Source of the DNA: Tessaracoccus flavescens | GTDB lineage: Bacteria > Actinomycetota > Actinomycetes > Propionibacteriales > Propionibacteriaceae | Assembly (NCBI RefSeq): GCF_001998865.1 | Contig: NZ_CP019607.1 | Span: 1,240,001 to 1,304,000 of the forward strand | Direction: 5' to 3' | Length of the DNA: 64,000 nucleotides | Shown here: one piece after another, positions 12,780 to 57,116 of the stretch | Numbering within the stretch: the stretch's first letter is position 1 | Layout of the letters: each line of letters starts with the position of its first letter | Notes under the pieces: generated by a model | What the model was told of the DNA's origin: nothing | Database searches by the model: none | The model's input: the letters and a program-made list of their open reading frames with translations, nothing else | Made by a program: the position numbers and the translations under genes

Positions 12780-15620
12780 TCAGTCGGCGTCGACGACCAC
12801 CATCGGCGGGAAGCCGGCCTCCGGCGCCCGGTGTTCGTAGCCGGTGAGGCGGTCATAGACAGCGAGCAGGCCGTCCTCGAGACCCTGCCACGTGCGCTCG
12901 GCGGCCTTCTCCGCGAGCAGGTCCGCCGGGACGGGCGAGGCCAGGTTCTGCCGGACGGCGCGCAGGTAGTCCTGCAGGTCGCCGCTGCGGAACACCGTCC
13001 CGGTGCCGTGCTTGCGGGTGAACGCCCGCATCGCAGCCGCGTCGGCGTGCACGAGCGGCAGGCGGGCGTGCAGGTACTCGAACAGCTTGTTCGGCAGCGC
13101 GAGATCGTGGTTCGGTGAGCCCTTCGGGATGGCGGAGACGGCGACGTCTGCGCCAGACAGGTAGTAGGCGAGCTCGTGCTGCTCGACCGGCGGGGCGAAG
13201 TGCAGCCTCTCCTGGGCCACATCCGCGGCCTCTGCGACCTTGCGCAGCTCGGCCTCCTGCGGGTGCGGGAAGGGGACGGCGACCAGCACCAGGTGCACGT
13301 CGTCGGGCAGTTCGGCGAGCCCGCGGATCAGCAGGTCGAGGTTGCGGGCCCGGCTGAGCACGCCGGAGTAGACGAGCAGCTTGACGTCATCTCCCACGCC
13401 GACGGCGTCGCGGACGGTGCGCTCCCCCTCCAGCGGGTATTCGGCCGGGTAGTGCAGCGCGACCAAGGGACGGCGCGGCAGGCGGAAGCGCTGCTTCAGC
13501 TCGTCGGCGAGCGGCTCGGCGACGGTCAGCACGGCGTCGGCATGGACGATGCCGTCGGCCTCGGCCTTGACGAGCATCTCGTGCTGGGCGCGGACGCCCT
13601 GCTCGACCCCCGGCAGCCCCGCCCAGTTCTCGCGGGCGTCGTAGACGAGCCGCACCCCGTCACCGAGGCGTCGCTCAGCGGCGAGGGCGGCGTCGAACAC
13701 GTAGGGGTGGTGCACGTGCAGCACGTCGGGCTTCAGCTCGACCAGGAGGTCGGCGAGGGTGTCGGTGTGCTCGGCGATCACCACGTCGGGCCGTTCGGAC
13801 GGCGGGGTGACGAGGTTGCGCACACGGGCGGGCGCGTCGCGCTGCAGCTTGCCGATCACGCGCTCGCGCAGGTTCCGCGGCGCGGCCTTCGCCGGGCGTA
13901 CGGTGCGCTTCAGCGGGACGCGGAGGATCCGGACGTCACCCATCGACGCCTCGCCCGGCTCGGTTCCCGGCTGCTCGACGGAGACGACGGTGACCCGGTA
14001 GCCACCGCGGCTGAGCGTCGTGGCGATCTTCTTGGCGCGGGTGTCGAGGTCGATGGGGGCGTGCCGGAACAGCACGACGTGGGGCGCGTCGGTGCGCGAC
14101 CCGGGCGCGCGGAAGGGCGCGTCCTGCGGGATCAGCTGCGCGTCACCGGTGCGCGGATCCTCGATGGCGAGATGTGCGAGCCGACGGAAATCGGTGAGGA
14201 TCGACTCCTCGTTGTTCTGCCACGAGTAGCGCTCGGCGAGCCCGCGCAGATGCTCGGCTGGGACGGGATCGGCGAGCGCGGCGGTCAACTGGCGGCCGAG
14301 GTCGACGGGGTCGTTGCTGCGGAAGACGCGCCCCATGCCGTTGGTGGTGACGAAGTCGGCGAGCAGCTTCGCGTCGGAGGTGACGAAGGTCAGCTCGGCG
14401 TGCAGGTACTCGAACAGCTTGTTCGGCATCGCCTGGTCGTGGTTCGGCGAGCCTCCCGGCATCGGGTGCACGGCGACATCGGCGCCCGACAGGTAGTGGA
14501 TCAGCTCGCTCTGGTCGACCGGGGGGACGAAGTGGATCCGGTCGGCGACGCCGAGCGCCTCGGCCTGCTCGGTCAGCTCGGGCATCATCGGGTGCGGCAT
14601 CGGCATGGTGACGATGGCGAGGTGGGCGTCGGAGGGGACGTGGGCCATGGCGTCGATCAGGGTGTCCATGCCTCGGGCGCGGCTCATCACGCCGGAGTAG
14701 ACGATCAGCGGGACCCCGTCGTCGAGGCCCGCCTCCTCGCGCACCGTGCGGCGGCCCTCGCTCGGACCGAGCATCGGGTAGTTGCGCAGCGCGATAGCGG
14801 GGCGCGGCAGCTGGTAGTCGGCGGTGATCAGGTCGGCGATCGGCTCGTTGACCGAGGTGACGTAGTCGGTGAACGGCATGAACCGACGCTGCATCTCGAC
14901 CATCGTGCGGTGTCCGGTGACGTCGCCGATCTCCTTCTCGGGCAGGCCGGAGAAGTTCTCCCGCACGTCGTAGGAGATCCGCACGGGATGACCGCCGCGG
15001 CGCAGCTCGTCCATGGCGTGCCAGGCTGCGGGGATCACGTTCGGGTGGTGCGCGTGCAGGATGTCGGGCCGCAGCGAGATCAGCAGGTCGCGCAGCGTGT
15101 AATCGGTGTGGTCGGCGATGGGAAGGTTGTTCGGCAGGTCGAGATCGAGGAACGGATCCTCGCCCTTGCCGCGCAGGTACCAGGCCTTCTGCACGAGCGA
15201 GCGGGCCCCGCGCGCGATGCGGCCGGGGGTGTCGCCCAGGTCGTGCGGCAGCAGCTGGGCGCTGAGCTTCGCGACGTGCAGTGCGGCCTTCGCGGACCCG
15301 GCGTTGGGGCCGGTGATCCTGCTCCGGTAGGCGGCCCGTCGACGGCGCAAGGCCCCGACGTGCTCGGGTTCCTTCTGCACGGGTGCCGCGGCGTCCAGAC
15401 GCCCGAGGTCTTCCTGCGGGCGGAAGGTCAGCGGCACGCGGATCACGCGGATGGCGCCGTCGAGTAGGAACTCCTCGCTCCTGCCGCCTGCCGGCTCGAC
15501 GGAGATGACGATCGGCTCGAAGCCGCCGCGGAGCAGGGTGCCCGCGAGGCGCTTCGCGCGCGAATCGAAGTCGATCGGCGCATGGCGGAAGATCACGACG
15601 CGGGGCTTGCCAACGGTCAC
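12780..15620 (-). CDS. Tandem two-module GT4-type glycosyltransferase
   Basis: 946 residues made of two related GT-B modules. Module 1 (about 1-490) starts with VVIFRHAPIDFDSRAKRLA and module 2 (about 505-946) with VVLFRHAPIDLDTRAKKIA. Both carry the C-terminal donor-site pattern SPNHD.A.PNKLFEYLHA and a YSGV.SRAR loop. GT4 enzymes move sugars from nucleotide donors to growing glycans at the inner membrane face. The duplication suggests two linkages made by one polypeptide, or one catalytic and one structural half. The GTG start follows GAAAGG; a TAGAGT box lies at 15651-15656. It is convergent with the surface-protein remnant. Confidence 0.85.
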   Translation of the reverse strand: MTVGKPRVVIFRHAPIDFDSRAKRLAGTLLRGGFEPIVISVEPAGGRSEEFLLDGAIRVIRVPLTFRPQEDLGRLDAAAPVQKEPEHVGALRRRRAAYRSRITGPNAGSAKAALHVAKLSAQLLPHDLGDTPGRIARGARSLVQKAWYLRGKGEDPFLDLDLPNNLPIADHTDYTLRDLLISLRPDILHAHHPNVIPAAWHAMDELRRGGHPVRISYDVRENFSGLPEKEIGDVTGHRTMVEMQRRFMPFTDYVTSVNEPIADLITADYQLPRPAIALRNYPMLGPSEGRRTVREEAGLDDGVPLIVYSGVMSRARGMDTLIDAMAHVPSDAHLAIVTMPMPHPMMPELTEQAEALGVADRIHFVPPVDQSELIHYLSGADVAVHPMPGGSPNHDQAMPNKLFEYLHAELTFVTSDAKLLADFVTTNGMGRVFRSNDPVDLGRQLTAALADPVPAEHLRGLAERYSWQNNEESILTDFRRLAHLAIEDPRTGDAQLIPQDAPFRAPGSRTDAPHVVLFRHAPIDLDTRAKKIATTLSRGGYRVTVVSVEQPGTEPGEASMGDVRILRVPLKRTVRPAKAAPRNLRERVIGKLQRDAPARVRNLVTPPSERPDVVIAEHTDTLADLLVELKPDVLHVHHPYVFDAALAAERRLGDGVRLVYDARENWAGLPGVEQGVRAQHEMLVKAEADGIVHADAVLTVAEPLADELKQRFRLPRRPLVALHYPAEYPLEGERTVRDAVGVGDDVKLLVYSGVLSRARNLDLLIRGLAELPDDVHLVLVAVPFPHPQEAELRKVAEAADVAQERLHFAPPVEQHELAYYLSGADVAVSAIPKGSPNHDLALPNKLFEYLHARLPLVHADAAAMRAFTRKHGTGTVFRSGDLQDYLRAVRQNLASPVPADLLAEKAAERTWQGLEDGLLAVYDRLTGYEHRAPEAGFPPMVVVDAD

Positions 15621-15650
15621 GCAAACGGCCTTTCACTTGGAACCAGGGTC

Positions 15651-15656
15651 ACTCTA
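15651..15656 (-). promoter_or_regulatory. Putative -10 element of the tandem glycosyltransferase gene
   Basis: TAGAGT on the minus strand, about 30 bases before the GTG at 15620, in the divergent region shared with the epimerase gene. Confidence 0.4.
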
Positions 15657-15782
15657 CCGGCCGGCACTCCACGGTCGGCCCTCTGGCATGCCCCTCATCC
15701 GCACGGCGGCGCCCGCCGTTGTGCGCGTAGCCTGGGCGTCCGAGAGGACGGTCGGGGGCCGGGCTTGTGCCAGACTGACCAC

Positions 15783-16847
15783 GTGAAGATCATGAGCGTC
15801 GTCGGAGCCCGCCCGCAGTTCGTCAAGCTCGGCCCCATCGTCAGGGCCTGTGAGCAGCACGCGGAGCTCGAACACATCATCGTGCACACCGGTCAGCACT
15901 ACGACCCGCTGCTCTCGGATGTCTTCTTCCGCGACCTCGGCATCCCCGCCCCGAACGCACACCTCGGCGTCGGCTCCGGCTCGCACGGCCGACAGACGGG
16001 CGCCATGCTCGCGGCCATGGACGGCGTCCTGGAGGAGTACCAGCCCGACTGGGTCCTCGCCTACGGCGACACCAACTCGACGGCGGCCGCCGCGCTAGCC
16101 GCGGTCAAGCAGCACATCAAGCTCGCCCACCTCGAGGCGGGCCTGCGCTCCTTCAACCGCCGCATGCCCGAGGAGCACAACCGGATCGTCACCGACCACG
16201 TCGCCGACCTGCTCCTGGCGCCGACCCAGGTCGCCGTCGACCACCTCGCCGCGGAGGGCCTCGCCGAGCGGACGCTGCTGGTCGGCGACGTGATGACCGA
16301 CGTCTGCCTTGCCACCCGCGACGCGGTGCGCGACGACGCCGTCACCCTCCCCGCGGGGGTCGATCCGGAGGCCCCGTTCGTGCTCGCCACGATTCACCGC
16401 GCCGACAACACCGACGATCCGTCCCGGTTGCGCGAGATCCTCGATGCGCTGAAGGGCGCACCCGTCCCCGTGGTGCTGCTTGCGCATCCGCGCCTCGCGG
16501 CCCTCGCGAAGAAGCACGGCGTGTCGCTGACCGCCGGGTCGCTCGTCGCGTCGGAGCCCCTCGCCTACCCTCAGATGGTGCGCGCCGTCATGGCCGCCGC
16601 CGGCGTCGTCACCGACTCCGGGGGCCTGCAGAAGGAGGCGTTCCTGCTGGAGACGCCGACCACGACGATCCGCACCGAGACCGAATGGGTCGAGACCCTC
16701 GAGGACGGCTGGAACATCCTCGACCCCGGCCTCACCCAGCTCGCCGAGGTGATGGTGCGGCCCCGCCCCGAAGGGGCCCAGGCGCAGCCCTACGGTGACG
16801 GGCACGCCGCCGAGCACGCCGTCCAGGCCCTGGTCGACCGGGCCTGA
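15783..16847 (+). CDS. UDP-sugar 2-epimerase, WbpI-like
   Basis: 354 residues from GTG (VKIMSVVGARPQFVKL); the frame is open upstream but the family N-terminus fixes the start. Motifs GARPQFVK, YGDTNST, HLEAGLRSFNRRMPEE and SGGLQKEAF are those of non-hydrolysing 2-epimerases. The wording GARPQF.K and the length of 354 residues resemble WbpI (UDP-2,3-diacetamido-2,3-dideoxyglucuronate 2-epimerase) more than WecB, which begins FGTRPEA. That fits the WbpA/B/E/D-like genes at 23-28 kb. The specificity is inference from motif and context. CAGACT lies six bases before the start. Confidence 0.85.
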   Translation: MKIMSVVGARPQFVKLGPIVRACEQHAELEHIIVHTGQHYDPLLSDVFFRDLGIPAPNAHLGVGSGSHGRQTGAMLAAMDGVLEEYQPDWVLAYGDTNSTAAAALAAVKQHIKLAHLEAGLRSFNRRMPEEHNRIVTDHVADLLLAPTQVAVDHLAAEGLAERTLLVGDVMTDVCLATRDAVRDDAVTLPAGVDPEAPFVLATIHRADNTDDPSRLREILDALKGAPVPVVLLAHPRLAALAKKHGVSLTAGSLVASEPLAYPQMVRAVMAAAGVVTDSGGLQKEAFLLETPTTTIRTETEWVETLEDGWNILDPGLTQLAEVMVRPRPEGAQAQPYGDGHAAEHAVQALVDRA

Positions 16848-24759: not shown

Positions 24760-24796
24760 GTGTTTCCTCCTCGCGGCACCCTGTGCACCGAGCGCA

Positions 24797-24802
24797 ACCT
24801 TA
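24797..24802 (-). promoter_or_regulatory. Putative -10 element of the nucleotide-sugar dehydrogenase gene
   Basis: TAAGGT on the minus strand about 40 bases before the GTG at 24759. It separates this gene from the operon ending at 24973. Confidence 0.35.
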
Positions 24803-41405: not shown

Positions 41406-41408
41406 CAG

Positions 41409-44867: not shown

Positions 44868-45184
44868 GCGAACAGGACCCGCCGGGCCCAGATCGTGTGA
44901 CCCTCCCGTGAGCAATGATGGGCTGCACAGCCACGGCGGCGTTGACCTGAGTACTCACTGCGGCCGGGATGGCGAATGCCACGCAGGGCGACAGCCCTTG
45001 TCGGAAGCCGTTCGCTCGATCGGTTGTCTCCCGCCGTGAGTGCGGGTACTCATTTGCTGCTACTGCAGATACCCAGGAAAGACGGGTAGATCCCCCCACG
45101 ATTTTGGGGTCACAAGCCGAAGGTTTACCGCCACTCTTGTTAGGGACGGAGTTCACACCGGACTTCGAGGAAAGAGGGCAAGAG
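44868..45184. other. Long divergent intergenic region upstream of the WhiB-like gene
   Basis: Roughly 320 bp with no convincing gene between two divergent start sites. The last 15 bases hold AGAGGGCAAGAG as ribosome site. The length leaves room for several regulator sites; I see no strong palindrome. Confidence 0.4.
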
Positions 45185-45786: not shown

Positions 45787-45855
45787 GCCGTTTCAGCGGG
45801 CCGGGCACTAGTGTTGAGCGCACCGTCGTGCGACGGTCGGCGGAAAGGGGCAGGC

Positions 45856-47193
45856 ATGAAGCGGGTCATCACCTACGGGACCTTCGACCTGTTCCACGAC
45901 GGGCACCGCAGGCTCCTCGAACGGGCCCGGGAACTCGGCGACCACCTCACCGTCGGAGTCACCGCATCCACCTACGACGACGCTCGCGGCAAGCTCAACG
46001 TGCGCCAGTCCCTCGTGGAGCGCATCGGCAACATCGTGGACTCGGGTCTCGCCGACGAGGTCATCGTCGAGGAGTACGAGGGTCAGAAGATCCACGACAT
46101 CCAGCGCCTGAAGATCGACACCTTCGTCATCGGCTCCGACTGGGTCGGGAAGTTCGACTATCTGAGCGACTACTGCGAGGTCGTCTACCTCGAGCGCACA
46201 AAGGGCATCTCCAGCACGGGCCTGCGTGAGGCGCGCGGCGTCATCCGGCTCGGGGTGGTCGGAGCGGGAAGGATCACCCGCAGGTTCGTGCGCGAGGCGA
46301 GGTTCGTCTCCGGCGTCAGCGTCGAGGCCGTCTGGACCCGCGACCACGCCAAGGCGACCGCCTTCGCCGACGAGTTCGAACTCACCTGGGCGAACGAGAC
46401 GCTCGACATCCTGCTCGAACACGTCGACGCCGTCTACATCGCGACCCCCCACGAGACGCATGTGGAGTTCGCGCGGAAGGCACTCGAGGCCGGCGTCCAC
46501 GTCCTCTGCGAAAAGCCTGTCGCCCTCTCCGTCCCCGAACTGGAGGACCTCTACGCCCTCGCCGACGCGCGTTCGCTCGTCCTGCTCGAGGCAATGAAGA
46601 CGGCGTTCGCGCCCGGATTCCAACGCATGGTCGCCATCGCCCGCAGCGGCACACTCGGCAGCATCAGGGCGGTCGACGCCACCTTCACCAAGCTCATCAC
46701 CGAGGGCCGCGAGCTCGACTCCCCCGTCGGCGGCGCCCTGACCGAACTCGGCACCTACCCCTTCCTCGCCATCGTGAAGCTGCTCGGCGAGAAGCCGACC
46801 GATGTCTCGTCCCGGGTGCTGCGCAAGGGTGAGGACGGGGTCGACCTTTTCGCCCGCGTCAACGTCGACTACCCACACGCCGTCGCCTCCGCAACCGTCG
46901 GCATCGGCGTGAAGTCAGAGGGCGACCTCGTCGTCTCGGGCACGCTCGGCTACCTGTACGTGCCCGCCCCGTGGTGGCTGACCGAGTACTTTGAGACCCG
47001 CTTCGAGGATCCTCGCAACAACCGCAAGTACTACACGACCTACGACGGCGACGGCCTGCGCTACGAGCTGGCGGAGTTCGTCTCGATGATCCTCGACCAG
47101 ACGCCGGAGTCGTTCAAGCTGCGCCGCTCGGAGTCGCTGGCGGTCGCCTCGCTGCTCGAGCGCGCCCGCCGCGACGCCCGCTCCTTCGGGTGA
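45856..47193 (+). CDS. Fusion: TagD-like cytidylyltransferase plus Gfo/Idh/MocA oxidoreductase
   Basis: 445 residues from the ATG at 45856 (GGCAGGC upstream). Residues 1-128 are a glycerol-3-phosphate cytidylyltransferase-like domain: GTFDLFHDGH (His14, His17 for CTP) and RTKGISSTGLR at 114-124. Residues 131-445 are an NAD-dependent oxidoreductase with RLGVVGAGRI, EKPVALS and an intact C-terminal domain. The first domain would make a CDP-alcohol (CDP-glycerol or a relative); the second would oxidise or reduce a sugar or polyol, perhaps making the alcohol that is then activated. Its stop overlaps the next gene by 4 bp, coupling it to a Stealth sugar-phosphate transferase. Confidence 0.85.
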   Translation: MKRVITYGTFDLFHDGHRRLLERARELGDHLTVGVTASTYDDARGKLNVRQSLVERIGNIVDSGLADEVIVEEYEGQKIHDIQRLKIDTFVIGSDWVGKFDYLSDYCEVVYLERTKGISSTGLREARGVIRLGVVGAGRITRRFVREARFVSGVSVEAVWTRDHAKATAFADEFELTWANETLDILLEHVDAVYIATPHETHVEFARKALEAGVHVLCEKPVALSVPELEDLYALADARSLVLLEAMKTAFAPGFQRMVAIARSGTLGSIRAVDATFTKLITEGRELDSPVGGALTELGTYPFLAIVKLLGEKPTDVSSRVLRKGEDGVDLFARVNVDYPHAVASATVGIGVKSEGDLVVSGTLGYLYVPAPWWLTEYFETRFEDPRNNRKYYTTYDGDGLRYELAEFVSMILDQTPESFKLRRSESLAVASLLERARRDARSFG

Positions 47194-48542
47194 GCGGCGT
47201 GAAGGGCCCCGTCAGCACAGCGCTGCACCTGACCCGGAGGGCGGCCGAGTCGGCGGTCGAACGGCTCGGGCACGCGGTCTCGCGCCTGCGCGACAGGGGC
47301 ACGCATGGCCGCCACGCGGTGCGGGTTTCTTTCCGGGGCCGCAGCCTCGCCGCTCTGCCGTGGCGATCGGCGGAGACGGCCTTCGACGCGACCCTCACGC
47401 GCTGCCATGACGTCCTCGGCGAGAGCAGGCTCGAGACGGTGCGGCGAGGCTGGGAACGGCCCGCGATCGTGGTCGACGACCTCCCGGCCACCCGCGCCAC
47501 GCTGCGCGCCACCCCCGGCCTCTACCTGGAGGGCGACCGGGTCTTCCACGCCTGGGAGAGTTCGGGACGGTTCGTCGCTGGGCCGGACGTCGGCGTCGAC
47601 CTGGTCACCTCGTCACCCGCACCCGCGTTCTCCGGCGAGATCGATCTCGTCTTCACCTGGGTAGACGGCACCGATCCGGCATGGCTGGAGCGACGCCGGA
47701 GCAGGCTCGGGCAGGATGCCGCGACACTCCACCCCAGCGCCGCGAACGACGCCCGTTTCGTCCAGATCGATGAGCTCCGCTTCGCGCTGCGCGCCGTCGA
47801 GCGGTTCGCCCCCTGGCGCCGCCGCGTGTTCCTCGTCACAGACGGGCAGTCGCCCGACTGGCTGGCCGACGAGTTCCCGCACGTCGCGCTGGTGGGCCAC
47901 GAGCAGCTCTTCGACGATCCGGAGGCGCTGCCGACGTTCAACTCGCACGCCATCGAGTCGCGCCTGCACCGCATCCCGGGGCTCGCCGAGCACTGGATCT
48001 ACCTCAACGACGACGTCTTCCTCGGTGGCTACAGCCCACCGTCGAGATTCTTCGACGCGGAGGGTCGGGCCCGCGTCTTCCTGGCCGACGAGGCGATCCC
48101 GGACGGTCCCGTCACCGCCTCCGACCAACCCGTCGTCGCTGCCGCGAAGCGCAACCGCGAACTGCTGGCGAGGCTGACCGGCGCACGACTCGAGCGAAAG
48201 CTCAAGCACGTCCCGCACCCCCAGCTACGCTCGGTCACCGAAGAGCTCGAACGGCTGGCGCCGGCGGAGTTCCGCTCGACCGGACGATCCGCGTTCCGGC
48301 ACCCCGACGATCTCTCGGTCGCCTCCTCACTGGCCCCGCATTACGCCCTCGCTACCGGGCGGGCGGTTCCCGGTCGGATCTCGCACTTCTACGCCGACGT
48401 CGCCTCGCCCGAGCTGCGGTGGCGCCTGCCGCGCCTGCTGGAGTGGCGCGACGCCGACGTGATCTGCCTCAACGCAACCGACGCCGCGCCCGACGCAAAC
48501 CGGGCGCGGCTGGTCGACTTCCTCAGCCGCTACTTCTTCTGA
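47190..48542 (+). CDS. Stealth-family sugar-phosphate transferase
   Basis: 450 residues. The Stealth conserved regions are in order: CR1 EIDLVFTWVDGTDPAW (150-165), CR2 IDELRFALRAVERFAPW with FLVTDGQSPDWL and LPTFNSHAIESRLHRIPGL and YLNDDVFLG, CR3 LKHVPHPQLRSV and CR4 near the C-terminus. Characterised relatives in capsule loci (for example of meningococcal serogroup A and Xanthomonas) transfer sugar 1-phosphate, creating phosphodiester links. The first 145 residues are a separate N-terminal module. Coupled to the cytidylyltransferase fusion by GTGA overlap; its 3' end overlaps the convergent gene by 13 bp. Confidence 0.88.
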   Translation: MSGVKGPVSTALHLTRRAAESAVERLGHAVSRLRDRGTHGRHAVRVSFRGRSLAALPWRSAETAFDATLTRCHDVLGESRLETVRRGWERPAIVVDDLPATRATLRATPGLYLEGDRVFHAWESSGRFVAGPDVGVDLVTSSPAPAFSGEIDLVFTWVDGTDPAWLERRRSRLGQDAATLHPSAANDARFVQIDELRFALRAVERFAPWRRRVFLVTDGQSPDWLADEFPHVALVGHEQLFDDPEALPTFNSHAIESRLHRIPGLAEHWIYLNDDVFLGGYSPPSRFFDAEGRARVFLADEAIPDGPVTASDQPVVAAAKRNRELLARLTGARLERKLKHVPHPQLRSVTEELERLAPAEFRSTGRSAFRHPDDLSVASSLAPHYALATGRAVPGRISHFYADVASPELRWRLPRLLEWRDADVICLNATDAAPDANRARLVDFLSRYFF

Positions 48543-51235
48543 GCCTCGTCCGACACCTCGTATGGAGAGGGCCAGGGCAGGATGTCGTTCAGGAAATCGC
48601 GAAGCTCCTCATTGGTGTCGAACTGCTCCTCGCCAGCTGAGTTCTCGCCGATTGCGAAGGACCGCAGATTGCGGTCGCCACGGATCGCCTTCATCCGGTC
48701 GATGGTGGTGGGCGCGTTGAGCTGCAGGTAGGAATACCTCGTCGCTCCCTCGATGTATTCACCCGTGAAGTAGCCGTAGTACTGGGCGAGGCCGCTGCAC
48801 ATGGAGACGTCTCGTTCATGCCGGAACCGTGAGGCGCGCGTGGCAGCGATCTCCCCCTCGAACTCCTGTTCAAGCTGCTGCAGTACCGACCGGCGATGGG
48901 GGTGGGGCGTGTGCAGAAAGGCCTGCGACGTGGTCTTCCCGAACCGTTCCTGAATCAGGCGACGGTTGTTCTGCGCCGACTGGATGTGCGGCGGGGAGTC
49001 GGGCAGATCGTTGACCTTGACCGGCGACAGGAAGAACCGCGCCTGGCCGGCGGAGGTGAAGTAGTTGCCCTTCGTGGCCGACCGCGTGAGGATCACGTCG
49101 TCGTTCATCACGATGAAATGCTCACTCAGCCCAGGAATCCTGTGCAGGCACGCCTCGATCGCCTGCGAGTTGAAGGTCGGCAGTGCGCTCGGATCCGGGA
49201 AGATGTCGCGGTGGTCGACCACCTGGATCCGCTCGTCCGAGGTGTCCAGCCACGAGGGACGCTGGTTGTCGGTGACCAGGAAGATCTTATTCACCCACGG
49301 CGCATAGGCATGCAGCGAGCGCAGGCTGTAGCGCAGTTCCTGGCGATCGGTGAATCGGGTCACGTCGGTCGCCTCAGCGTGATACTCGCCGGGCGCCTCG
49401 GAGAACTCGGCCCGCTTGCGCAGCCATTCGGGATCCTGCCCGTCGACCCACATGTAGACGACGTCGACCGGGAAATCGGGGACTGACCACAACCCGGAGA
49501 CCGACTCGGCGAGGCTGGCGAGGCTCTGCTCGGGACGCGTGGCGAAGAAGTTCTCCTCCACGAGGCTCGCCCAGCGGTTGTGCCGCGGGCAAGCGTAGGT
49601 GCCGTCCGGTTGCGTGGTCCAGACCTCCAATTCGACGAAGGCCCCAGGATCGCTCACCTTCGCCTGGTCGAGCGGAACGTCGAGCATGAGCCCGAACACC
49701 CGGGAGGCACTCCAGCGCATCACCGATCCGACGCTCGCGGCGCCGTTGGACCAGCGCGCATCCTTGCGGCGCGGCTCGACGAAGCGGGCGACGACCTCCC
49801 CTTCGAGATGAGCGAGCGTCCGTCCCACCTCAGGGACATCCACGTCGCGCACAGCGATCACGGGGCACTCGCCGTAGCCAGCGATCGGTGCCCAGCCGAT
49901 CCCTTCCTCCGCCAAGGCAGCAGTGAGTCGTCGCAGGGTGCGCTCGGCAGCAACGCTCGGAACGGCCGGGACCACCGAAGGCGGTGTCACGGCGGGGGCA
50001 GCCTCGTCGACAGGCAATGGGGGAACCGGCCTCGGAAGGGCCTCCAGACGCTCGGAACGCTTCGCGCCTGTAAGGTGCCAGAACAACTCCTCCCACTGGT
50101 CGGTCACGACCTGCTCCGAGTAGCGCTCGGAGGATGCACGCGCGTTAGCCCCCATCGCGATCCTCAGGTCTTCATCCGCCATCAGGGTGCGCAGACGCTG
50201 CGCGAAGGCATGCGTGTCTTCAGCCGGGACGAGGTAGCCGTTGACTCCGTCCTCGATGATCTCGGCCGGCCCGGTCGGGATGTCGTAGGACACGAACGGG
50301 ATACCGGTGGCGACCGCTTCGAGGCCTACGAGCGGCAGCCCCTCAAAGATGGAGGTCATCGCGGCGATGGACGCCTTAGACATCTCGAGGCGGAGATCCT
50401 GAACGAATGGGAAGAGGTGGATCTGGTCTCCGAGCCCGGCCTCCTCAATCACCGTCTGGATCCGCCCCTTGTACGGGCCCTCCCCGAAGATCCGAAGTTC
50501 CCAGTCCGGGAACTCCTCGGCGACCATCGAGAATGCCTCGACAAGGTGCTCGAACCTCTTCTGTGGAGCGTGACGCCCTGCCGCAATGATGACCTTGGAC
50601 CGGCATGACGACTGCGCGTAGAAACCGTTCGGGTTCATGTTGGGGATGGTGGGCAACATTGGGCTGCCCGTGAGGTTCTCCGTCAGCCAGGTCGTCGAAC
50701 GCTCGGTGAGAGATACGAGCGCGTCGATCCGATCGCTGAACTCGTTGATCTTGTTGAAGGCTCCCCTGGCGCGGAAGGCCGTCGGCCGATGCTCCTGCTG
50801 GACAATGGCCACCTTCGGGCAGAAGAGAGTGGCGTACGCGACAAGCGGCGGGGTGGGTGCAACGATGATCTCGGCCCTAGAGCGCCGCAGTAGCGGAGGA
50901 AGAACGAGATCGCACAGAGCCGTGAACTGTACATCCCAACCGGGGGGGGAGATGGCCGAGCCCTGCTTATGGAGCCAGACGGGATCGGGGATCTGGCTTG
51001 CCACCCAACGGTGAGGCCTGATCCTGTCATCCCGTCGATCGATTGCGTAGGTGACCTGCACCTTCGGGTGGATGTGGAAATGCGGACGGTCCGCGTCACG
51101 GAAGACGCTGATGATGCTGACTGTATGTCCACGCCGAGCCAGCGCATTGGCCTGATGGATGATCGCCTGTTCGGTTCCACCGACCAGGTCAGCAGTCATC
51201 AGGAGGTACTGGATGTTGAGTTTCTTCATGCTCAC
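48530..51235 (-). CDS. Fusion: GT4 glycosyltransferase plus Stealth sugar-phosphate transferase
   Basis: 901 residues. The GTG at 51235 overlaps the preceding stop (GTGA); an ATG two codons later is also possible. Residues 1-395 are a GT4 enzyme (LLMTADLVGGTEQAIIHQANALARRGH, then EGLPLVGLEAVATGIPFVSYD). Residues 405-590 are a linker region of unknown fold. From about 590 the Stealth domain follows: VDVVYMWVDGQDPEW, FTDRQELRYSLRSLHAYAPW, LPTFNSQAIEACLHRIPGL, VMNDDVIL. One chain would therefore add a sugar and a sugar phosphate, that is, a repeat unit with a phosphodiester bond. It is the last gene of the operon that starts at 57116. Confidence 0.87.
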   Translation of the reverse strand: MSMKKLNIQYLLMTADLVGGTEQAIIHQANALARRGHTVSIISVFRDADRPHFHIHPKVQVTYAIDRRDDRIRPHRWVASQIPDPVWLHKQGSAISPPGWDVQFTALCDLVLPPLLRRSRAEIIVAPTPPLVAYATLFCPKVAIVQQEHRPTAFRARGAFNKINEFSDRIDALVSLTERSTTWLTENLTGSPMLPTIPNMNPNGFYAQSSCRSKVIIAAGRHAPQKRFEHLVEAFSMVAEEFPDWELRIFGEGPYKGRIQTVIEEAGLGDQIHLFPFVQDLRLEMSKASIAAMTSIFEGLPLVGLEAVATGIPFVSYDIPTGPAEIIEDGVNGYLVPAEDTHAFAQRLRTLMADEDLRIAMGANARASSERYSEQVVTDQWEELFWHLTGAKRSERLEALPRPVPPLPVDEAAPAVTPPSVVPAVPSVAAERTLRRLTAALAEEGIGWAPIAGYGECPVIAVRDVDVPEVGRTLAHLEGEVVARFVEPRRKDARWSNGAASVGSVMRWSASRVFGLMLDVPLDQAKVSDPGAFVELEVWTTQPDGTYACPRHNRWASLVEENFFATRPEQSLASLAESVSGLWSVPDFPVDVVYMWVDGQDPEWLRKRAEFSEAPGEYHAEATDVTRFTDRQELRYSLRSLHAYAPWVNKIFLVTDNQRPSWLDTSDERIQVVDHRDIFPDPSALPTFNSQAIEACLHRIPGLSEHFIVMNDDVILTRSATKGNYFTSAGQARFFLSPVKVNDLPDSPPHIQSAQNNRRLIQERFGKTTSQAFLHTPHPHRRSVLQQLEQEFEGEIAATRASRFRHERDVSMCSGLAQYYGYFTGEYIEGATRYSYLQLNAPTTIDRMKAIRGDRNLRSFAIGENSAGEEQFDTNEELRDFLNDILPWPSPYEVSDEAQKK

Positions 51236-52104
51236 CGGTTCCTCACCTTCAGCGACAGGTTTCCGCTGAGAGTCCAGTAGGGACGCACCAGCAGCGTGTG
51301 TTCCGAGTCCACCACCGTGTGGGGCAGGAATGTCTGATAGTTCCTGGGCACTCGAAGCCAGGGGTCTGGATGCGAAATGCCACCGTGTGCTCCTTCCGTG
51401 GTGACCTCGATGTCCATCAGAACCGGCCCCACGTGGCCAGTCGGGCAGAGTCGTGCGAGCAGGTCGGCCGTCACGACGAGTCCCGGTCCGGCGGTTGGGA
51501 TTGCAACGCTCTCTCCGTCCTCGTCCCTCGCGCGCAGTGAGGCGGCGGAGAGCACGAGATCTGTTGAGATCACGAGTGCCGACGGCTCATCGGTCCACGT
51601 GAGGCTGCCAAGCAACGGGGCTTGGAGCTTCCTCTGCTTCCCCTCCTCGATGAGCAGCGCGCCGTTTCCCTTCCTGACCACAAGCCGGTCGATCAGCGGG
51701 TAGCTCTTGTCCCGGGTCTGCCGCACCTTCATGGATGAGAGTGAGACCTCCCCCTGGTCAGTCATGACGCGGATCTTCGTCCCGGGAACCAGGCGGCTGT
51801 CCTGCGACAGCTTGGCGAGCACGAACGATCTCCCATCCTGGTCGTAACGCAGGAGCTCCTGCAGTTCGCTGGAAGTCGTGCCGGCCGCAGCTTCGACCTG
51901 AGCCGACAGTTGGGCAACGGGAGCCTTGGACGAGATGAGAAAGGTCAGGACATGTTCATCGGCGATGGCCACGTCCGTCAGCGCCGGTCCACTGGTCGCA
52001 GGACCAGCAGGCGTGCGGATCCCCTCCACACGGGCCACCAGCTTTCTGCGCAGCCTCTTCGCCGCAGGCCGCATCGCCTCCGGCACCAGATCCTTCATCG
52101 CCAT
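51232..52104 (-). CDS. Unknown protein of the glycan locus
   Basis: 290 residues. A short basic N-terminus (RPAAKRLRRKLVARVEG) is followed by a predominantly beta-type sequence ending HTLLVRPYWTLSGNLSLKVRNR. There is no signal peptide, membrane helix or catalytic motif that I can name. The beta-rich pattern could be a carbohydrate-binding or oligomerisation domain of the type attached to some wall glycosyltransferases (inference). It is coupled by a 4-bp overlap to the GT4-Stealth gene, making that protein the most likely partner. Confidence 0.6.
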   Translation of the reverse strand: MAMKDLVPEAMRPAAKRLRRKLVARVEGIRTPAGPATSGPALTDVAIADEHVLTFLISSKAPVAQLSAQVEAAAGTTSSELQELLRYDQDGRSFVLAKLSQDSRLVPGTKIRVMTDQGEVSLSSMKVRQTRDKSYPLIDRLVVRKGNGALLIEEGKQRKLQAPLLGSLTWTDEPSALVISTDLVLSAASLRARDEDGESVAIPTAGPGLVVTADLLARLCPTGHVGPVLMDIEVTTEGAHGGISHPDPWLRVPRNYQTFLPHTVVDSEHTLLVRPYWTLSGNLSLKVRNR

Positions 52105-52160: not shown

Positions 52161-53816
52161 TCACAACTCGAAGCCGCTCGCAACGGGGAAATAACGCCGA
52201 AGGTAAGCGTCGAAGGCCTTGGCCTTGGCGTCGTCGAGCGCGGTTCCCGTGTCATTGAGGCAGAACACCGCGAACTGCCTGGATCGCAGCCATCGGGCGA
52301 GCACCTGCTCGATGTCGGGGCGGCTGATGTCTGCGTAGTTGTAGGCGATCCGGGACACGACTGCCCGCCCCGTCGCCGCCCCGTACCGCTGGGCGAGCCC
52401 TGACACCACCGAGTGATCGGTGTGTGAGCGGAATCTGGCCCGCACGTTGCCCTCGAAGACCTCAGGGAACCGCTCCTCGAGCTCATTGAGCAGAGAGACG
52501 AGTTGGGCGTGCGGCGTGTGCTTCAGCTTCGTCGTGATGGTCCGTCCGAGCGCCCGCTCCAGGAGGTCGCGGTTGTTCTTCGCGGCACTCGTCACCGAAA
52601 CGTCGTCCGGACGGCTCGGCCCAGGGTCGATCGTCGCCCTGCTGGGGAAGAACCGCGCCTGTCCTGCACCCGTGTAGAAATCCTCAGGCCACACGGTCGA
52701 GCCGAAGAAGACGTCGTCGTTGAGATAGATGAAGCGCTCGGAGAGCCCGGGGATGTGGTGCAGCCTCGATTCGATGGCGTGCGAGTTGAACAGGGGGACC
52801 TCATCCTCGGTGAAGAGGTCGCGGTGGTCGACGACGGTGAGTCGCGGATGCTCGCGGTTGAGCCACTCGGGCACCTGGGCGTCGGTGACGAGGTAGAGGT
52901 GGTTGAACCAGTTGGCGTACATCTCGACGGACCGCAGCGAGTAGCGCAGTTCGTCGTGGCTCACGAACCGGGACGCCAGCTGGGCGTCCACCGTGAACCC
53001 CGTTCCCTCCCAGCGTGCCCGCTTCTCCAGCCACGCGAGATCGGAGCCGTCGACCCACGTGTAGACCAGGTCGACCGGTTCCGTGACGGCGTCGATCGAT
53101 GGCAAGCGCACGGCGTCGGTGCCTGGAACAAGCGTCGCCCGCACCGCGGGGCTGAGCTCTGAGGCGTATCCGTTCGGCTCCAATTCGCCACGAAGGAGGG
53201 TTCCGATCTCGTGCTCTCCACCGTCGACGCGGCGCACCCCTCGCTGCGTCACCTCGCTCCACCGTTCGAGGCAGACATGCATGGATTCGTCGGCCAGCAC
53301 GTGGCCACCGGGGGCGACGAGCCTGCGGAAGAGCAGGCACTCCGCACCGGCCGGGGCTTCGGCTGCGTCGGAGACGGGAACGGCGCGGCGTCGCCCCTCG
53401 GCTGCCCAGAGCGAGCGGGTCCGAGGGTCGCCGGCGAGCAACGTCCAGGCCCTGGACCAGTCGTTGTCGCTGACGACGAGAACGCAGGGCCGAACACCTG
53501 GCAGCTCGTGAACTGGGACGGTGCCCTCGCTGAGGACCTCGACGATCCGGCCGCGTAGGTCTTCGAGGTGGGCGTGGGCATCGAAGCTGGTGGCGATCTC
53601 GGCACGGTGGGGATGCAGCAGCGATCCGCCGAGCTGATCGCCTTCCCCCGGAACTCCGAGCGAGCCGGCCCGCAGCGTGCGGACGCGCTCGACGAGGCGT
53701 CGCTGGGCATCGGTCTCGCCATGGATGATCGCCGAGACGCCTCGACGCCCACCGGCCGGCAGGGCACGGTAGAGGCGCTGCGCAAGCTCACCGACCCGCT
53801 TCTTCAGGCCACCCAC
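52161..53816 (-). CDS. Stealth-family sugar-phosphate transferase
   Basis: 551 residues from GTG. CR1 PVDLVYTWVDGSDLAWLEKRARWEG is near residue 240; CR2 (HDELRYSLRSVEMYANWFNHLYLVTD, LFNSHAIESRLHHIPGLSERFIYLNDDVF), CR3 LKHTPHAQLVSLLNEL and CR4 follow. The first 230 residues form an extra N-terminal module. It is one of three Stealth proteins in this locus, and only this one and the 450-residue one share a similar free-standing layout. It likely forms a phosphodiester in the exported polymer. Confidence 0.88.
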   Translation of the reverse strand: MGGLKKRVGELAQRLYRALPAGGRRGVSAIIHGETDAQRRLVERVRTLRAGSLGVPGEGDQLGGSLLHPHRAEIATSFDAHAHLEDLRGRIVEVLSEGTVPVHELPGVRPCVLVVSDNDWSRAWTLLAGDPRTRSLWAAEGRRRAVPVSDAAEAPAGAECLLFRRLVAPGGHVLADESMHVCLERWSEVTQRGVRRVDGGEHEIGTLLRGELEPNGYASELSPAVRATLVPGTDAVRLPSIDAVTEPVDLVYTWVDGSDLAWLEKRARWEGTGFTVDAQLASRFVSHDELRYSLRSVEMYANWFNHLYLVTDAQVPEWLNREHPRLTVVDHRDLFTEDEVPLFNSHAIESRLHHIPGLSERFIYLNDDVFFGSTVWPEDFYTGAGQARFFPSRATIDPGPSRPDDVSVTSAAKNNRDLLERALGRTITTKLKHTPHAQLVSLLNELEERFPEVFEGNVRARFRSHTDHSVVSGLAQRYGAATGRAVVSRIAYNYADISRPDIEQVLARWLRSRQFAVFCLNDTGTALDDAKAKAFDAYLRRYFPVASGFEL

Positions 53817-53850: not shown

Positions 53851-54732
53851 TCACACCACCGGTGGCCGTCCGTGGACCGCCATCCTCCAGTGCGTGGACC
53901 ACTTGAGCTTCTTTCTCCGCGCCCCGGCCCAGGGGCGTTCGCTCCATCCGTCTCCCCAACCGTCCCACCACACGCGGTCGTCGGTCTCGGGCAGGTCGCG
54001 GATCAGGTGCTGCAGCGTCCATGCGGAGACGTACAGCCAGGAGAATGGCCAGTGCAGGCATCGCCGCGCCAGCCAGACCCGGTTACGGGCGTTCATGTAG
54101 TGCAGTTCGCGGTGTCTCGACTGGTCGATCACCGGGTGCGCGACGCTGAGGTCGCCGCGGTACTCGACCCGCTGGCCCAGGTCCCAGACCCGCCACGCGA
54201 GCTCGATGCCCTCGTGCGCGTAGAAGAACTCGTCCGGCCATCCCCCGGTCGCATCGAAGGTGGAGCGGGGAAGCACGACCGCGGTCTCCAGCACCGAAAA
54301 GACCTCGCTGCTGCGCGCCGGGTCGCCCTTGCGCAACCGCGGGATCCAGCGCCTCGGCTCCTCGCCGCGTCGGTCGGGGTCGATGATCCGTGGCTGGATC
54401 ATGCCGAGGGTGGGGTCGGTGCGGAGCATGCCGATGGCGTCGCTCAGGAAGGTGTCGGAGAGGAGCCAGGAGTCGTCGTCGAGGAAGAAGATGTACTCGC
54501 CGCCGACCTGTGCGACGCCGGCGTTGCGTCCTGCGGGGATGCCGAGGTTCTCTCCGAGCCGGTGCACCCTGACCCCCTCGGGCACCTCCACCGGATCCGA
54601 ACCGTTGACCACGACCACCGCGTCGAGCTCGACCCCCTGCTGGGAGACCAGCGAGCCGAGCGCCCGCTGGAGTTCCTCACGACGGTTTCCCATCGTGAGG
54701 ATGACTGCCCCGACCGTGATCGGGGCGCTCAT
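53851..54732 (-). CDS. GT2-family glycosyltransferase
   Basis: 293 residues. GT-A fold with GAVILTMGNRREELQRALGSLVSQQG, VVNGSD, FLDDDSWLL (DxD-type metal site) and GWPDEFFYAHEGIELAWRVWDLGQ, the acceptor-side ED motif typical of rhamnosyl- or galactofuranosyl-type GT2 enzymes. It overlaps the CDP-alcohol phosphotransferase gene by 4 bp and belongs to the operon of exporter system 2. Confidence 0.88.
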   Translation of the reverse strand: MSAPITVGAVILTMGNRREELQRALGSLVSQQGVELDAVVVVNGSDPVEVPEGVRVHRLGENLGIPAGRNAGVAQVGGEYIFFLDDDSWLLSDTFLSDAIGMLRTDPTLGMIQPRIIDPDRRGEEPRRWIPRLRKGDPARSSEVFSVLETAVVLPRSTFDATGGWPDEFFYAHEGIELAWRVWDLGQRVEYRGDLSVAHPVIDQSRHRELHYMNARNRVWLARRCLHWPFSWLYVSAWTLQHLIRDLPETDDRVWWDGWGDGWSERPWAGARRKKLKWSTHWRMAVHGRPPVV

Positions 54733-55526
54733 CGTGCGGCCAGTCTCGGCGACACCCAGATCGCGATGAAGTGGCCGACGATGACCGGCCAGATCAGCAC
54801 GGCGAGCGCAACGACGTACCAGGGCCAGACGGCGGGGATGAACAGAGCGACGACGGCCACGGCCAGTGAGACGAGGGTCAGCTCGATGGAGTGGAACATC
54901 CGGTGGAACGGGACGAAGCGCGCGACGCGACGCAGCCGGGCGAGCAGCGAGCCACCGGAGATGGCTCGGACCGCCGGCTGGTCGGGCAGCCGCTCGAGGC
55001 CCGAGTTGGTGCGCGCGAGCGTCACCATCATGTTGAGCGACTTGTTGAACCAGATGCCTGCCGCCAGCGCGGCCCCGATGAACATGAAGCGCCAGTCGAC
55101 GGGCTCACCGAACCAGGAGAACGCGACCGAGACACCGAGGAAGGCGCCGATGGAGCCCTCGGCCACGTAGTGGCCGATCTGGTCGAGGAAGATCCCGCGC
55201 GGGCTCATGGTCTCGCGCCACCGCGCGACCTCCCCGTCGCAGCAGTCGAGCAGCATCTGGAACTGGGCGAGCAGGGCGGCGACCAAGGGTCCCCAGAGCC
55301 CCGGAATCAGAAGCGCAGGCCCGGCGAGGCCGCCCGCGATGATCATGAGCCAGGTCACGCCGTTGGCCGTGATCGGGGTGCGCACCAGAAGCCAGGTCAG
55401 ATAGATCGACAGCCGACGCATGTACAGCGTGCCCGTCCAGTGCTCGGCCGAGCGCTCCATCACCCAGTCCGGCTGGACGACGGCGCGCAGTTCCCCCAGG
55501 GTGGGGGCGGCTGGGCGGGCGGTCAT
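54729..55526 (-). CDS. CDP-alcohol phosphotransferase homologue with altered motif
   Basis: 265 residues, about six hydrophobic helices. The family signature DxxDGxxAR(x8)GxxxDxxxD is present as D94-CC-D97-G98, A101-R102, G111, D115, but the last aspartate, thought to be the catalytic base, is His119 (GIFLDQIGHY). The family joins a CDP-linked donor to an alcohol in the membrane, for example in phospholipid synthesis. Placed between an exporter ATPase and a GT2 gene, it probably makes the lipid anchor or adds a phospho-alcohol to the glycan. It would pair naturally with the TagD-like enzyme at 45856 (inference). Confidence 0.82.
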   Translation of the reverse strand: MTARPAAPTLGELRAVVQPDWVMERSAEHWTGTLYMRRLSIYLTWLLVRTPITANGVTWLMIIAGGLAGPALLIPGLWGPLVAALLAQFQMLLDCCDGEVARWRETMSPRGIFLDQIGHYVAEGSIGAFLGVSVAFSWFGEPVDWRFMFIGAALAAGIWFNKSLNMMVTLARTNSGLERLPDQPAVRAISGGSLLARLRRVARFVPFHRMFHSIELTLVSLAVAVVALFIPAVWPWYVVALAVLIWPVIVGHFIAIWVSPRLAAR

Positions 55527-56278
55527 GTGCGGCCGGCCTCGTAGGCCTTCACGACCTCGTCGGTCGGCCCGTCCATGACCAGCTCGCCCTTGTTGATCCA
55601 GATGGTGCGCTTGCAGGTGTCGCGGATCGACGACATGGAGTGAGAGACGAGGAAGATGGTCCCCGCCTCGGTCGCGAGTTCCCGGATCCTGGCCTCGGAG
55701 CGCTTGCGGAACCGCTTGTCGCCGACGGCGAGCGCCTCGTCAATGATCAGGATGTCGTGGCTGCGGGCTGCCGCGATCGAGAACTTGAGCCTTGCCTGCA
55801 TGCCCGAGGAGTACGTCCGCATCGGCAGGTCGATCGAGTCCCCTAGTTCGGCGAACTCGGCGATGTCGGCCTTGAGCTGCTCGACCTCATCCCGGGAGAA
55901 CCCCATGGCGAGGCCGCCGAGCACTATGTTGCGCGACCCGGAAAGGTTCGGCAGCAGGGCTGCACCCACGCCGAGCAGGTTGGGGCGCGACCGGGCGTAG
56001 ACGGCGCCGGCCGCGGGCGGCGTCAGACCCGTCAGCGCGCGCATCAGCGTCGACTTGCCGGAGCCGTTCGAGCCGATCACGCCGATGGTCTCGTTCTCGT
56101 AGGCGGTGAAGGAGACACCCTTGAGCGCGTGCACCTCACGGATGCCGCGCGTCATGTTGAGCAGCCCGCTGCGCGCCGCGCCCGCGGCCTTGCCGGACGC
56201 GAAGACGCGGTACTTGACGTGCAGATCGTCCACGACGACGACGGGGACGCGGGCCTCACCCTGGTTTGCCTCAGTCAC
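55523..56278 (-). CDS. Polysaccharide ABC exporter, ATP-binding subunit (system 2)
   Basis: 251 residues from the GTG at 56278, overlapping the permease end by 8 bp; a GTG 42 bp upstream is an alternative start. Walker A VIGSNGSGKST, signature RTYSSGMQARLKFSIA and Walker B HDILIIDEALAVGD are TagH/Wzt-like. It lacks a C-terminal glycan-binding domain, as does system 1. It is related to but clearly distinct from the ATPase at 29338, so the locus has two exporters. Its stop overlaps the phosphotransferase gene by 4 bp. Confidence 0.9.
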   Translation of the reverse strand: MTEANQGEARVPVVVVDDLHVKYRVFASGKAAGAARSGLLNMTRGIREVHALKGVSFTAYENETIGVIGSNGSGKSTLMRALTGLTPPAAGAVYARSRPNLLGVGAALLPNLSGSRNIVLGGLAMGFSRDEVEQLKADIAEFAELGDSIDLPMRTYSSGMQARLKFSIAAARSHDILIIDEALAVGDKRFRKRSEARIRELATEAGTIFLVSHSMSSIRDTCKRTIWINKGELVMDGPTDEVVKAYEAGRT

Positions 56279-57116
56279 GTCCGTACCGCTCTTCCGCCCG
56301 CCAGAAGAAGATGGCTCCACCGAGGAAGATCACCACAGAGCTGACCGCGAGCACCGCCCAGTAGTAGTTGGGGTAGGCATTCCCACCGATCAGGTGATGG
56401 CGCGCGATCACCAGCACCTGGTAGAGCGGGTAGAAGTCGAAGATCCGGAGCACGACCGGGTGGTTGGCAAGGATCTTGTCCACCGCGAAGAGCACGCCGG
56501 AGCTGTAGAACAGCAGCCGGCTGATGAACGGCAGCAGCTGCGTCAGGTCCGAGACGTGCACCGTCAGCCGTGCCGTGATCAGCGCGATCCCCGCGTTGAA
56601 GAGCGTGAAGCACAGGATCAACGGGATCATCAGCAGCCATTCCCACCTCGGGAAATGGCCGAAGAGCATCAGGATGGGGATGAGTACCACCATCATGATC
56701 AGGAACTGCAGGAACCGTTCGACGGTGGCAGCCAACGGAAGCGTCATCCGCGGGAAGGCGAGCGACTGCACCAGGTTGCGGTTGCCGCTGATCGCCTTCG
56801 AGCCGTCGTTGAAGCAGCCCTGGAAGAACTCGAACAGGAAGACGCCGATCACGACGAAAGCCGGGTAGTCAGGCGGCCGGTTGCCCGCCTGGAGCAGCCC
56901 GAAGATGACGCCGTAGATGCCGGCGTTGAGGATCGGACGCAGCACCACCCAGGCCAGGCCGAGCCGGTTGCTCTCCAGGCTGGCGCGCATCCGGAAGCGG
57001 GCCATGGTAGCGATGAAGTCGCGACGGCGCCACACCTCCGCCAGATAGCTGGGGAACGATGGTCGCGCACCGACCCGCGGCAGGTTCCATTCCTGCACAA
57101 GGGGGGGCAGTGTCAC
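56271..57116 (-). CDS. Polysaccharide ABC exporter, permease (system 2)
   Basis: 281 residues from GTG with GAAAGGTGCC upstream. The N-terminal segment YLAEVWRRRDFIATMARFRMRASLESNRLG precedes six hydrophobic helices of the ABC-2 (TagG/Wzm) type. First gene of a seven-gene minus-strand operon: permease, ATPase, phosphotransferase, GT2, Stealth, unknown, GT4-Stealth. A possible -10 (TAACAT) lies at 57209-57214, leaving a leader of about 90 bases that contains a GTGGAG/CTCCAC hairpin. Confidence 0.88.
   Translation of the reverse strand: MTLPPLVQEWNLPRVGARPSFPSYLAEVWRRRDFIATMARFRMRASLESNRLGLAWVVLRPILNAGIYGVIFGLLQAGNRPPDYPAFVVIGVFLFEFFQGCFNDGSKAISGNRNLVQSLAFPRMTLPLAATVERFLQFLIMMVVLIPILMLFGHFPRWEWLLMIPLILCFTLFNAGIALITARLTVHVSDLTQLLPFISRLLFYSSGVLFAVDKILANHPVVLRIFDFYPLYQVLVIARHHLIGGNAYPNYYWAVLAVSSVVIFLGGAIFFWRAEERYGRD

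Follow-up and report, generated by a model that had tools for sequence, protein, structure and literature searches.

Two neighbouring glycan modules form an island in Tessaracoccus flavescens, one of them with a TagD-MocA fusion in a genome without TagF or LicD matches

We analysed a stretch of 64,000 nucleotides of Tessaracoccus flavescens (bases 1240001-1304000 of contig NZ_CP019607.1; hereafter the window, whose positions are used throughout), taken from a genome of 3.65 Mb that is rated 100% complete. The window holds a glycan island that consists of two neighbouring modules and some unrelated genes, and not of one 44-kb pathway. Module A (about 12.8-45.2 kb) carries enzymes indicating a diacetamido-uronic acid, module B (45.8-57.1 kb) carries enzymes indicating phosphodiester chemistry, and both share one chromosomal slot, with the LCP (LytR-CpsA-Psr) ligase genes on one flank and HAD-serS on the other. 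We consider it reasonably probable that these are two wall-glycan modules, each making and exporting a polymer of its own. The new part of the island is module B, which contains a fusion of a TagD-type domain with an oxidoreductase, a predicted source of a cytidine diphosphate (CDP)-alcohol, and lacks TagF, a transferase that uses such donors.

The first-pass annotation had read the span as a single 44-kb glycan locus. All the gene classes that it named were recovered by Pfam, NCBIfam and Protein Data Bank (PDB) searches, including the Wbp-like set, three Stealth proteins, the TagD-type domain and the CDP-alcohol phosphotransferase homologue; Pfam likewise confirmed the GT4 and GT2 enzymes, the two TagGH-like exporters and the two LCP ligases just upstream. 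Gene content thus supports the two types of chemistry and the two ATP-binding cassette (ABC) exporters, but not a single pathway; the span also carries non-glycan genes. The reported lack of a Wzx/Wzy pair holds as well, in that no such family was found in a Pfam scan of 40 window proteins, to which this search was confined.

The two modules occur apart in related genomes

We read ten Tessaracoccus loci, which are those fetched and not a census. Module A stands alone in three of them (G084, G119 and G124) and module B alone in another three (G095, G138 and T. caeni), while both occur together in this genome (G000), T. bendigoensis, T. coleopterorum and G131, the last being a variant whose Wbp genes come without a match to the module A exporter ATPase (ABCa). 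The absence of module A from G138 applies to the locus only, and that from T. caeni to a 59-kb contig together with the lack of a WbpI match; G095 has neither a WbpI nor a WbpE match. Since G084, G119 and G124 carry module A and yield no match to the fusion, Stealth, PF04464 (TagF) or the CDP-alcohol enzyme, module A is independent of the phosphodiester module. The order in G084, GT4(932)-GT2-37917-GT4-argG-GT4(857)-GT4-permease-ATPase-GT4-WbpD-E-B-A-WbpI-GT4(946), is that of the window without its mobile fragments, and the set lies between HAD-serS and the zinc dehydrogenase gene 11111; G119 and G124 hold most of module A. One polymer with both features, made by one 44-kb locus, is hard to reconcile with gene sets that have separate exporters and occur separately in relatives, and two polymers are likelier than one.

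Co-occurrence was also counted in a family sample of 127 genomes, where WbpI was found in 26 and WbpE in 38 (WbpE in 23 of the 25 other WbpI genomes). WbpI and the fusion coincided in none of the 126 other genomes, against 3.8 expected, and WbpE and the fusion in one, against 5.6 expected, both without correction for kinship; T. bendigoensis, T. coleopterorum and G131, in which A-type genes stand beside B, are not part of these statistics. Because those three have A genes without a WbpI of the same grade, we dropped the mutual exclusion of WbpI and the fusion as proof. Near the island, T. bendigoensis (L160 4861) and G119 (L154 9386-10735) contain more epimerase- and dehydrogenase-like genes, of 31-36% identity, perhaps for another aminouronic acid.

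Two points weigh against the separation of the modules. WbpI is a poor marker of module A, as T. coleopterorum has no WbpI match and T. bendigoensis only one of 36%. Moreover, four of the ten loci have A and B side by side, and a conjugate of a ManNAc3NAcA-containing teichuronic acid with a teichoic acid is described for S. griseus (PMC13274773). A hybrid wall polymer therefore has to be weighed, in which the teichuronic chain of A would be built on or joined to the phosphodiester chain of B, in the way that ribitol teichoic acid, a polyol-phosphate chain, carries the ManNAc3NAcA polymer in S. griseus (PMC13274773). We regard the hybrid as unlikely, given that module A includes an exporter, that three relatives carry this module with no fusion, Stealth, TagF or CDP-alcohol-enzyme match, that B occurs without A in three loci, and that no dedicated exporter is listed in the published description of the S. 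griseus locus (PMC13274773). The LCP ligases would attach the products of the modules to peptidoglycan.

A TagD-MocA fusion is predicted to make a CDP-alcohol

The TagD-type domain reported by the first-pass annotation is present, but it forms the first 140 residues of a 460-residue fusion with a Gfo/Idh/MocA oxidoreductase, which had been missed. This predicted CDP-alcohol synthase (45811..47193, + strand) matches PF01467 (E 5.8e-15) and PF01408 (E 1.8e-25) and, among solved structures, TagD 1coz (9e-30) and the oxidoreductase 4had (1e-31). Its TagD half has the PF01467 fold and the HxGH motif, and scores 92.3 bits against the TagD equivalog TIGR01518, under the cut-off of 165.4. The structural model has a mean predicted local distance difference test (pLDDT) score of 90.9, with both halves at high confidence and a flexible link. 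Among fusion proteins from named organisms, the nearest belong to Tessaracoccus, and the best 120 of 7885 matches in the protein database all combine PF01467 with PF01408 under generic names; no characterised member was found in the literature.

A genome scan for relatives returned 195 stretches, and the 80 that were kept each match nearly the whole protein. They come from Actinomycetota, Bacillota, Bacteroidota, Campylobacteraceae, a spirochaete and the archaeon Methanosalsum, several being metagenome bins. Within 10 kb of the fusion, our own profiles detected a TagF-like gene in 42 loci, a LicD-like gene in 28 and either in 59; the profiles were built partly from the same 80 loci, and Pfam confirmed four cluster representatives. 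A TagF- or LicD-like gene directly adjoins the fusion in 34 of the 77 loci where the fusion open reading frame (ORF) was called. The other 21 of the 80 loci, some of them short, contain neither, and short-chain dehydrogenases are common neighbours (clusters in 15 and 14 loci). In whole genomes, the fusion was found in 20 of the 127 of the family sample and in 7 of 39 from Tessaracoccus. PF04464 is matched at E 4e-48 or better in 19 of those 20, the exception being the genome under study; for the other fusion genomes, this is 19 of 19 against 5.9 expected, kinship not corrected. Because TagF and LicD, the neighbours of the fusion, use CDP-alcohols (PMC10299916, PMC11666461), the fusion very probably makes such a compound. 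Its reductase half would convert a keto- or aldo-sugar phosphate, or a CDP-linked sugar, to the alditol that ends up as the CDP-alcohol.

A comparable division of labour is described for the CDP-6-glucitol pair HS5.17/HS5.18 of C. jejuni and for Mnp1/Mnp2 of S. pneumoniae, in which a cytidylyltransferase and a reductase likewise give a CDP-alditol (PMC10918830). However, those pairs belong to PF01128 and PF01370, a short-chain dehydrogenase/reductase (SDR) family, in contrast to PF01467 and PF01408 (Gfo/Idh/MocA) in the fusion (PMC10918830). Neither half is homologous by Pfam class, and we rejected a relationship with the C. jejuni pair. The published CDP-alditol pathways that we found, as described, use families other than those of the fusion (PMC10918830). 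If the fusion does make a CDP-alditol, this would account for loci on no fewer than 80 genome contigs, which span several phyla and include one archaeon.

Module B has a GT4-Stealth protein where T. bendigoensis has GT2-TagF

Downstream of the fusion, and overlapping it by GTGA, lies the gene of a Stealth phosphotransferase (47190..48542, + strand; PF11380, 1.8e-38). The remaining genes of module B are all on the - strand. A two-domain GT4-Stealth protein of 901 residues, which is a polymerase candidate (48530..51235; PF00534, 2.7e-35, and PF11380, 5.1e-44; solved match CpsY 8j2n, E 8e-53), is followed by a 290-residue orphan protein (51232..52104) without a Pfam match, whose gene overlaps the former by four bases and for which a protein search gave two relatives at E <= 0.001, 95-96% identical. 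Then come a Stealth phosphotransferase with CR1-CR4 (52161..53816; PF11380, 1e-42, and PF17103), a GT2 glycosyltransferase (53851..54732; PF00535), the CDP-alcohol phosphotransferase homologue (54729..55526), a TagH-like exporter ATPase (55523..56320; PF00005; best NCBIfam model TagH with 178.7 bits, cut-off 320) and an ABC-2 permease (56271..57116; PF01061, 1.7e-11). The motifs CR1-CR3 score above cut-off in all three Stealth proteins and CR4 was reported in one. This gene content fits a phosphodiester polymer. The Stealth proteins, by sugar-1-phosphate transfer, and the GT4 and GT2 enzymes would form a chain with phosphodiester links, the CDP-alcohol would be used within that chain or at its base, and the product would leave through the ATPase-permease pair (ABCb/TMb).

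Comparison with related species places the variation in the middle of the module. T. bendigoensis has the rest of module B in the same order and with 63-91% identity, and between its two Stealth genes an 898-residue GT2-TagF protein replaces both the 901-residue GT4-Stealth protein and the orphan. At the position of GT4-Stealth, G131 has a TagF-like frame and T. coleopterorum has genes for a GT2 enzyme and an FkbM methyltransferase. Overall, TagF was found at the module B locus in T. bendigoensis and T. caeni by Pfam, in G095, and, by our own profile only, in G131 and G138. In T. flavescens, the G+C content at third codon positions (GC3) of the middle genes is 0.78-0.84 versus 0.89-0.92 in the flanks, a pattern as in an exchanged cassette. 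Two-domain glycosyltransferase-phosphotransferases are known from TagF-like capsule polymerases and Bcs3 (PMC5974469, PMC10299916), an architecture found also in GT4-Stealth and in the GT2-TagF protein of T. bendigoensis. In module B of T. flavescens, by contrast, a Stealth domain forms the phosphotransferase part and a GT4 domain the glycosyltransferase part.

The absence of TagF extends beyond the locus, a point that the first-pass annotation had missed. PF04464 has no match in the whole genome, which speaks against a classical TagF-type teichoic acid, and PF04991 (LicD) has none either. A phmmer comparison of eleven unannotated pieces of module proteins with the collected proteins revealed no hidden TagF domain. 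PF04464 and PF04991 also lack matches in T. coleopterorum, although less weight attaches to this absence in a genome that is rated 60% complete and has split genes. In that species (L158, L156 and L062), many island genes are broken into two or three frames, perhaps by sequencing errors.

Possible fates of the CDP-alcohol

If the fusion supplies a CDP-alcohol here, either a Stealth protein would accept the CDP-polyol or the CDP-alcohol enzyme would use it. The latter enzyme matches PF01066 weakly (E 3.8e-5), and its model has a mean pLDDT of 89.1. The family motif is D-x2-DG-x2-AR-x8-G-x3-D-x3-D, with the last Asp as catalytic base. The enzyme agrees with this motif except at the last residue, where His119 aligns with the last motif Asp of 4o6m. 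This Asp-to-His change, also overlooked in the first-pass annotation, was seen in all 120 relatives listed, the best 120 of 978 at E 1e-10 or better.

The membrane enzyme encoded at 54729 could consume the CDP-alcohol, for example in priming or anchoring the chain, and the Stealth proteins would then perform ordinary sugar-1-phosphate transfer. In the six other B loci of Tessaracoccus, its gene adjoins the GT2 and ABCb genes. PF04464 matches accompany the enzyme in each of the 17 other genomes of the family sample that encode it (weak ones in G023, G029 and G045), and in G029 a stand-alone TagD-type gene is found close to it. The invariance of the His among the listed relatives makes an activity of the usual type uncertain, however, and 11 of the 17 other genomes have the enzyme without the fusion, so that we hold this route to be possible but only tentatively.

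A Stealth protein of module B that takes the CDP-alcohol as its donor in place of TagF appears improbable to us. Such a role would agree with the lack of PF04464 and PF04991 in both this genome and T. coleopterorum, each of which carries the fusion with an adjoining Stealth gene, and with the finding that GT2-TagF of T. bendigoensis occupies the slot of GT4-Stealth. On the other hand, Stealth polymerases as described transfer hexose-1-phosphate and TagF-like ones polyol-phosphate (PMC10299916, PMC5974469), and no CDP-polyol donor for Stealth was reported in the literature that we found. T. bendigoensis has a TagF domain alongside the same Stealth neighbour, so adjacency is no sign of donor use; the T. 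coleopterorum evidence is weak for the reasons given above; and a change to a polymer free of polyol may be all that happened in this module. A fuller version of this scheme is just as doubtful, namely that the fusion makes a new CDP-alditol normally passed to TagF or LicD, that Stealth took over here as a CDP-polyol phosphotransferase, and that the CDP-alcohol enzyme with its His centre primes or anchors the chains. With GT2-TagF and GT4-Stealth naturally exchanged at a single position among related species, the range of donors that Stealth accepts can be tested directly.

Finally, the fusion might be a relic, if the strain has lost the transferase of its polyol pathway and that pathway has become irrelevant. 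The genome without a TagF or LicD match would suit such a loss, but the 460-residue frame is intact, the invariant residues of both domains are kept, GC3 is 0.92, and the gene is coupled through the GTGA overlap to an intact Stealth gene, all of which makes it very unlikely that the fusion has fallen out of use.

Module A fits a ManNAc3NAcA polymer of a known kind

All five enzyme classes of the UDP-ManNAc3NAcA pathway (WbpA/B/E/D/I) are encoded together in module A. The WbpI-like UDP-diNAcGlcA 2-epimerase (15582..16847, + strand) has 24 solved matches, with 8sxv (E 2e-101) as the best; the top five are UDP-2,3-diacetamido-2,3-dideoxy-glucuronic acid 2-epimerases (E 2e-101 to 1e-100), the sixth is named a UDP-GlcNAc 2-epimerase (E 1e-66), and the others lie at 4e-47 or weaker. 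The PDB match begins at residue 68, and the true start is probably further in. On the - strand follow the WbpA-like UDP-HexNAc 6-dehydrogenase (23470..24819; PF03721/00984/03720; TIGR03026 with 319 bits, over cut-off), the WbpB-like UDP-HexNAc 3-dehydrogenase of the Gfo/Idh/MocA type (24973..25980; PF01408), whose best NCBIfam model, UDP-GlcNAc 3-dehydrogenase, gives 190.7 bits, under the cut-off of 450, the WbpE-like DegT aminotransferase (25977..27065; PF01041, E 1e-118; best solved match 7b0d at 2e-82, with the WbpE structures 3nyu/3nu7 at 6e-60) and the WbpD-like hexapeptide N-acetyltransferase (27066..27659; best solved match 3mqg at E 2.5e-39, next 1.3e-22).

This enzyme set fits the synthesis of UDP-ManNAc3NAcA and a teichuronic-type polymer. 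The pathway would lead to UDP-GlcNAc3NAcA and then, through the WbpI-like epimerase, to UDP-ManNAc3NAcA; the GT4 and GT2 enzymes would assemble the chain, and the ABCa/TMa pair would export it. The P. aeruginosa WbpA-B-E-D-I pathway comprises the same five enzyme classes, and the WbpI- and WbpD-like proteins find their best solved matches among its enzymes. The epimerase and the acetyltransferase are thus nearest to characterised pathway members, whereas the dehydrogenase, oxidase and aminotransferase are nearer to others, the aminotransferase to 7b0d rather than WbpE. Two of these results count against the assignment: the epimerase exceeds the NCBIfam wecB cut-off (244.9 bits versus 210.15), and the best solved match of the dehydrogenase is 4r16, a UDP-ManNAcA dehydrogenase. 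The exact uronic acid is less certain on both accounts.

The first-pass annotation had mentioned diaminohexuronic acids in glycans of propionibacteria, and this statement is well founded, since ManNAc3NAcA occurs in the wall and matrix polysaccharide of C. acnes (PMC6598116). C. acnes belongs to the same family, and the repeat of its polysaccharide combines ManNAc3NAcA with Gal, Glc and GalNAc (PMC6598116). In S. griseus, the utr locus resembles module A in encoding a dehydrogenase, oxidase, aminotransferase, N-acetyltransferase and 2-epimerase for UDP-ManNAc3NAcA together with glycosyltransferases (PMC13274773). The likeness is one of description, and the utr locus as described lists no ABC exporter, in contrast to module A (PMC13274773), which is also found in relatives that lack matches to TagF, Stealth and the fusion. 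As ManNAc3NAcA is described in the walls of both organisms, module A is not a new kind of system, and the earlier wording of an undescribed wall polymer was too strong for it. Actinobacterial wall glycans serve as phage and toxin receptors, as described for S. griseus (PMC13274773), and only a small number of the gene sets behind them have been worked out; among the papers listed by a literature search on walls of Tessaracoccus, none contained the genus name.

The other genes of module A are mostly glycosyltransferases. At its left end, a two-headed GT4 protein of 946 residues (12780..15620, - strand; GT4 Pfam models in two stretches) is 74-75% identical over its full length to counterparts in G119 and G084. 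Beyond the WbpD-like gene, all on the - strand, lie a GT4 enzyme (28244..29326; PF13692), a TagH/Wzt-like ATPase without a C-terminal glycan-binding domain (29338..30240; PF00005; best NCBIfam models teichoic acid and galactan exporters, under cut-offs), an ABC-2 permease (30185..31048; PF01061, E 8e-5), another GT4 enzyme (31049..32221; PF13439) and a two-headed GT4 protein of 857 residues (32218..34791; PF00534 at 283-438), whose residues 450-857 align with 575-932 of the protein at 42406 (phmmer, E 5e-28). The right arm comprises a GT4 enzyme (36589..37920, + strand; PF13692) whose neighbours are conserved in G084, a protein without a Pfam match (37917..39080, + strand) that is perhaps a divergent GT-B and has relatives of 36-41% identity adjoining argG in G084 and G124, a GT2 enzyme (39077..40171, - strand; PF00535) and a two-headed GT4 protein of 932 residues (42406..45204, - strand; PF00534). 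The match of its G084 relative starts at residue 124, so the true start is probably near 44835; some of the automatic ORF calls, that of the epimerase at 15582 among them, probably begin too far upstream.

Exporters, ligases and unrelated genes

Two pairs (29338/30185 and 55523/56271) combine an ABC-2 permease with a polysaccharide-type ATPase, the combination expected for ABC-dependent glycan export, with the ATPases below NCBIfam equivalog cut-offs. No Wzt C-terminal domain was found among the Pfam matches of either pair. The LCP glycopolymer ligases are encoded at 2386..4134 (PF03816, E 2.5e-22) and 4211..6424 (PF03816, E 1.9e-23), both on the + strand.

Between the epimerase gene and the other Wbp-like genes, 17997-21432 holds an ABC pair of the DrrAB type followed by a HisKA_3 kinase and a LuxR-type regulator; we rejected a third glycan exporter at 17997, this being a DrrAB-type pair with a two-component system. 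A major facilitator superfamily (MFS) transporter and a regulator (21429-23383) are further non-glycan genes of the span. The housekeeping gene argG (34913..36358, + strand) lies within the island and outside the pathway. A role as a sugar-modifying enzyme was rejected, as its product passes the argininosuccinate synthase equivalog cut-off (NF003779, 826 bits). argG also stands beside A or B genes in G084, G095, G124, G131, G138, T. bendigoensis, T. coleopterorum and T. caeni. Integrase N-terminal and insertion sequence (IS) transposase fragments (40485..42250, - strand; PF02899, PF00665 and PF13276) separate two glycosyltransferase genes that are adjacent in G084, and an ISL3-type transposase gene (63174-63998) runs past the end of the window.

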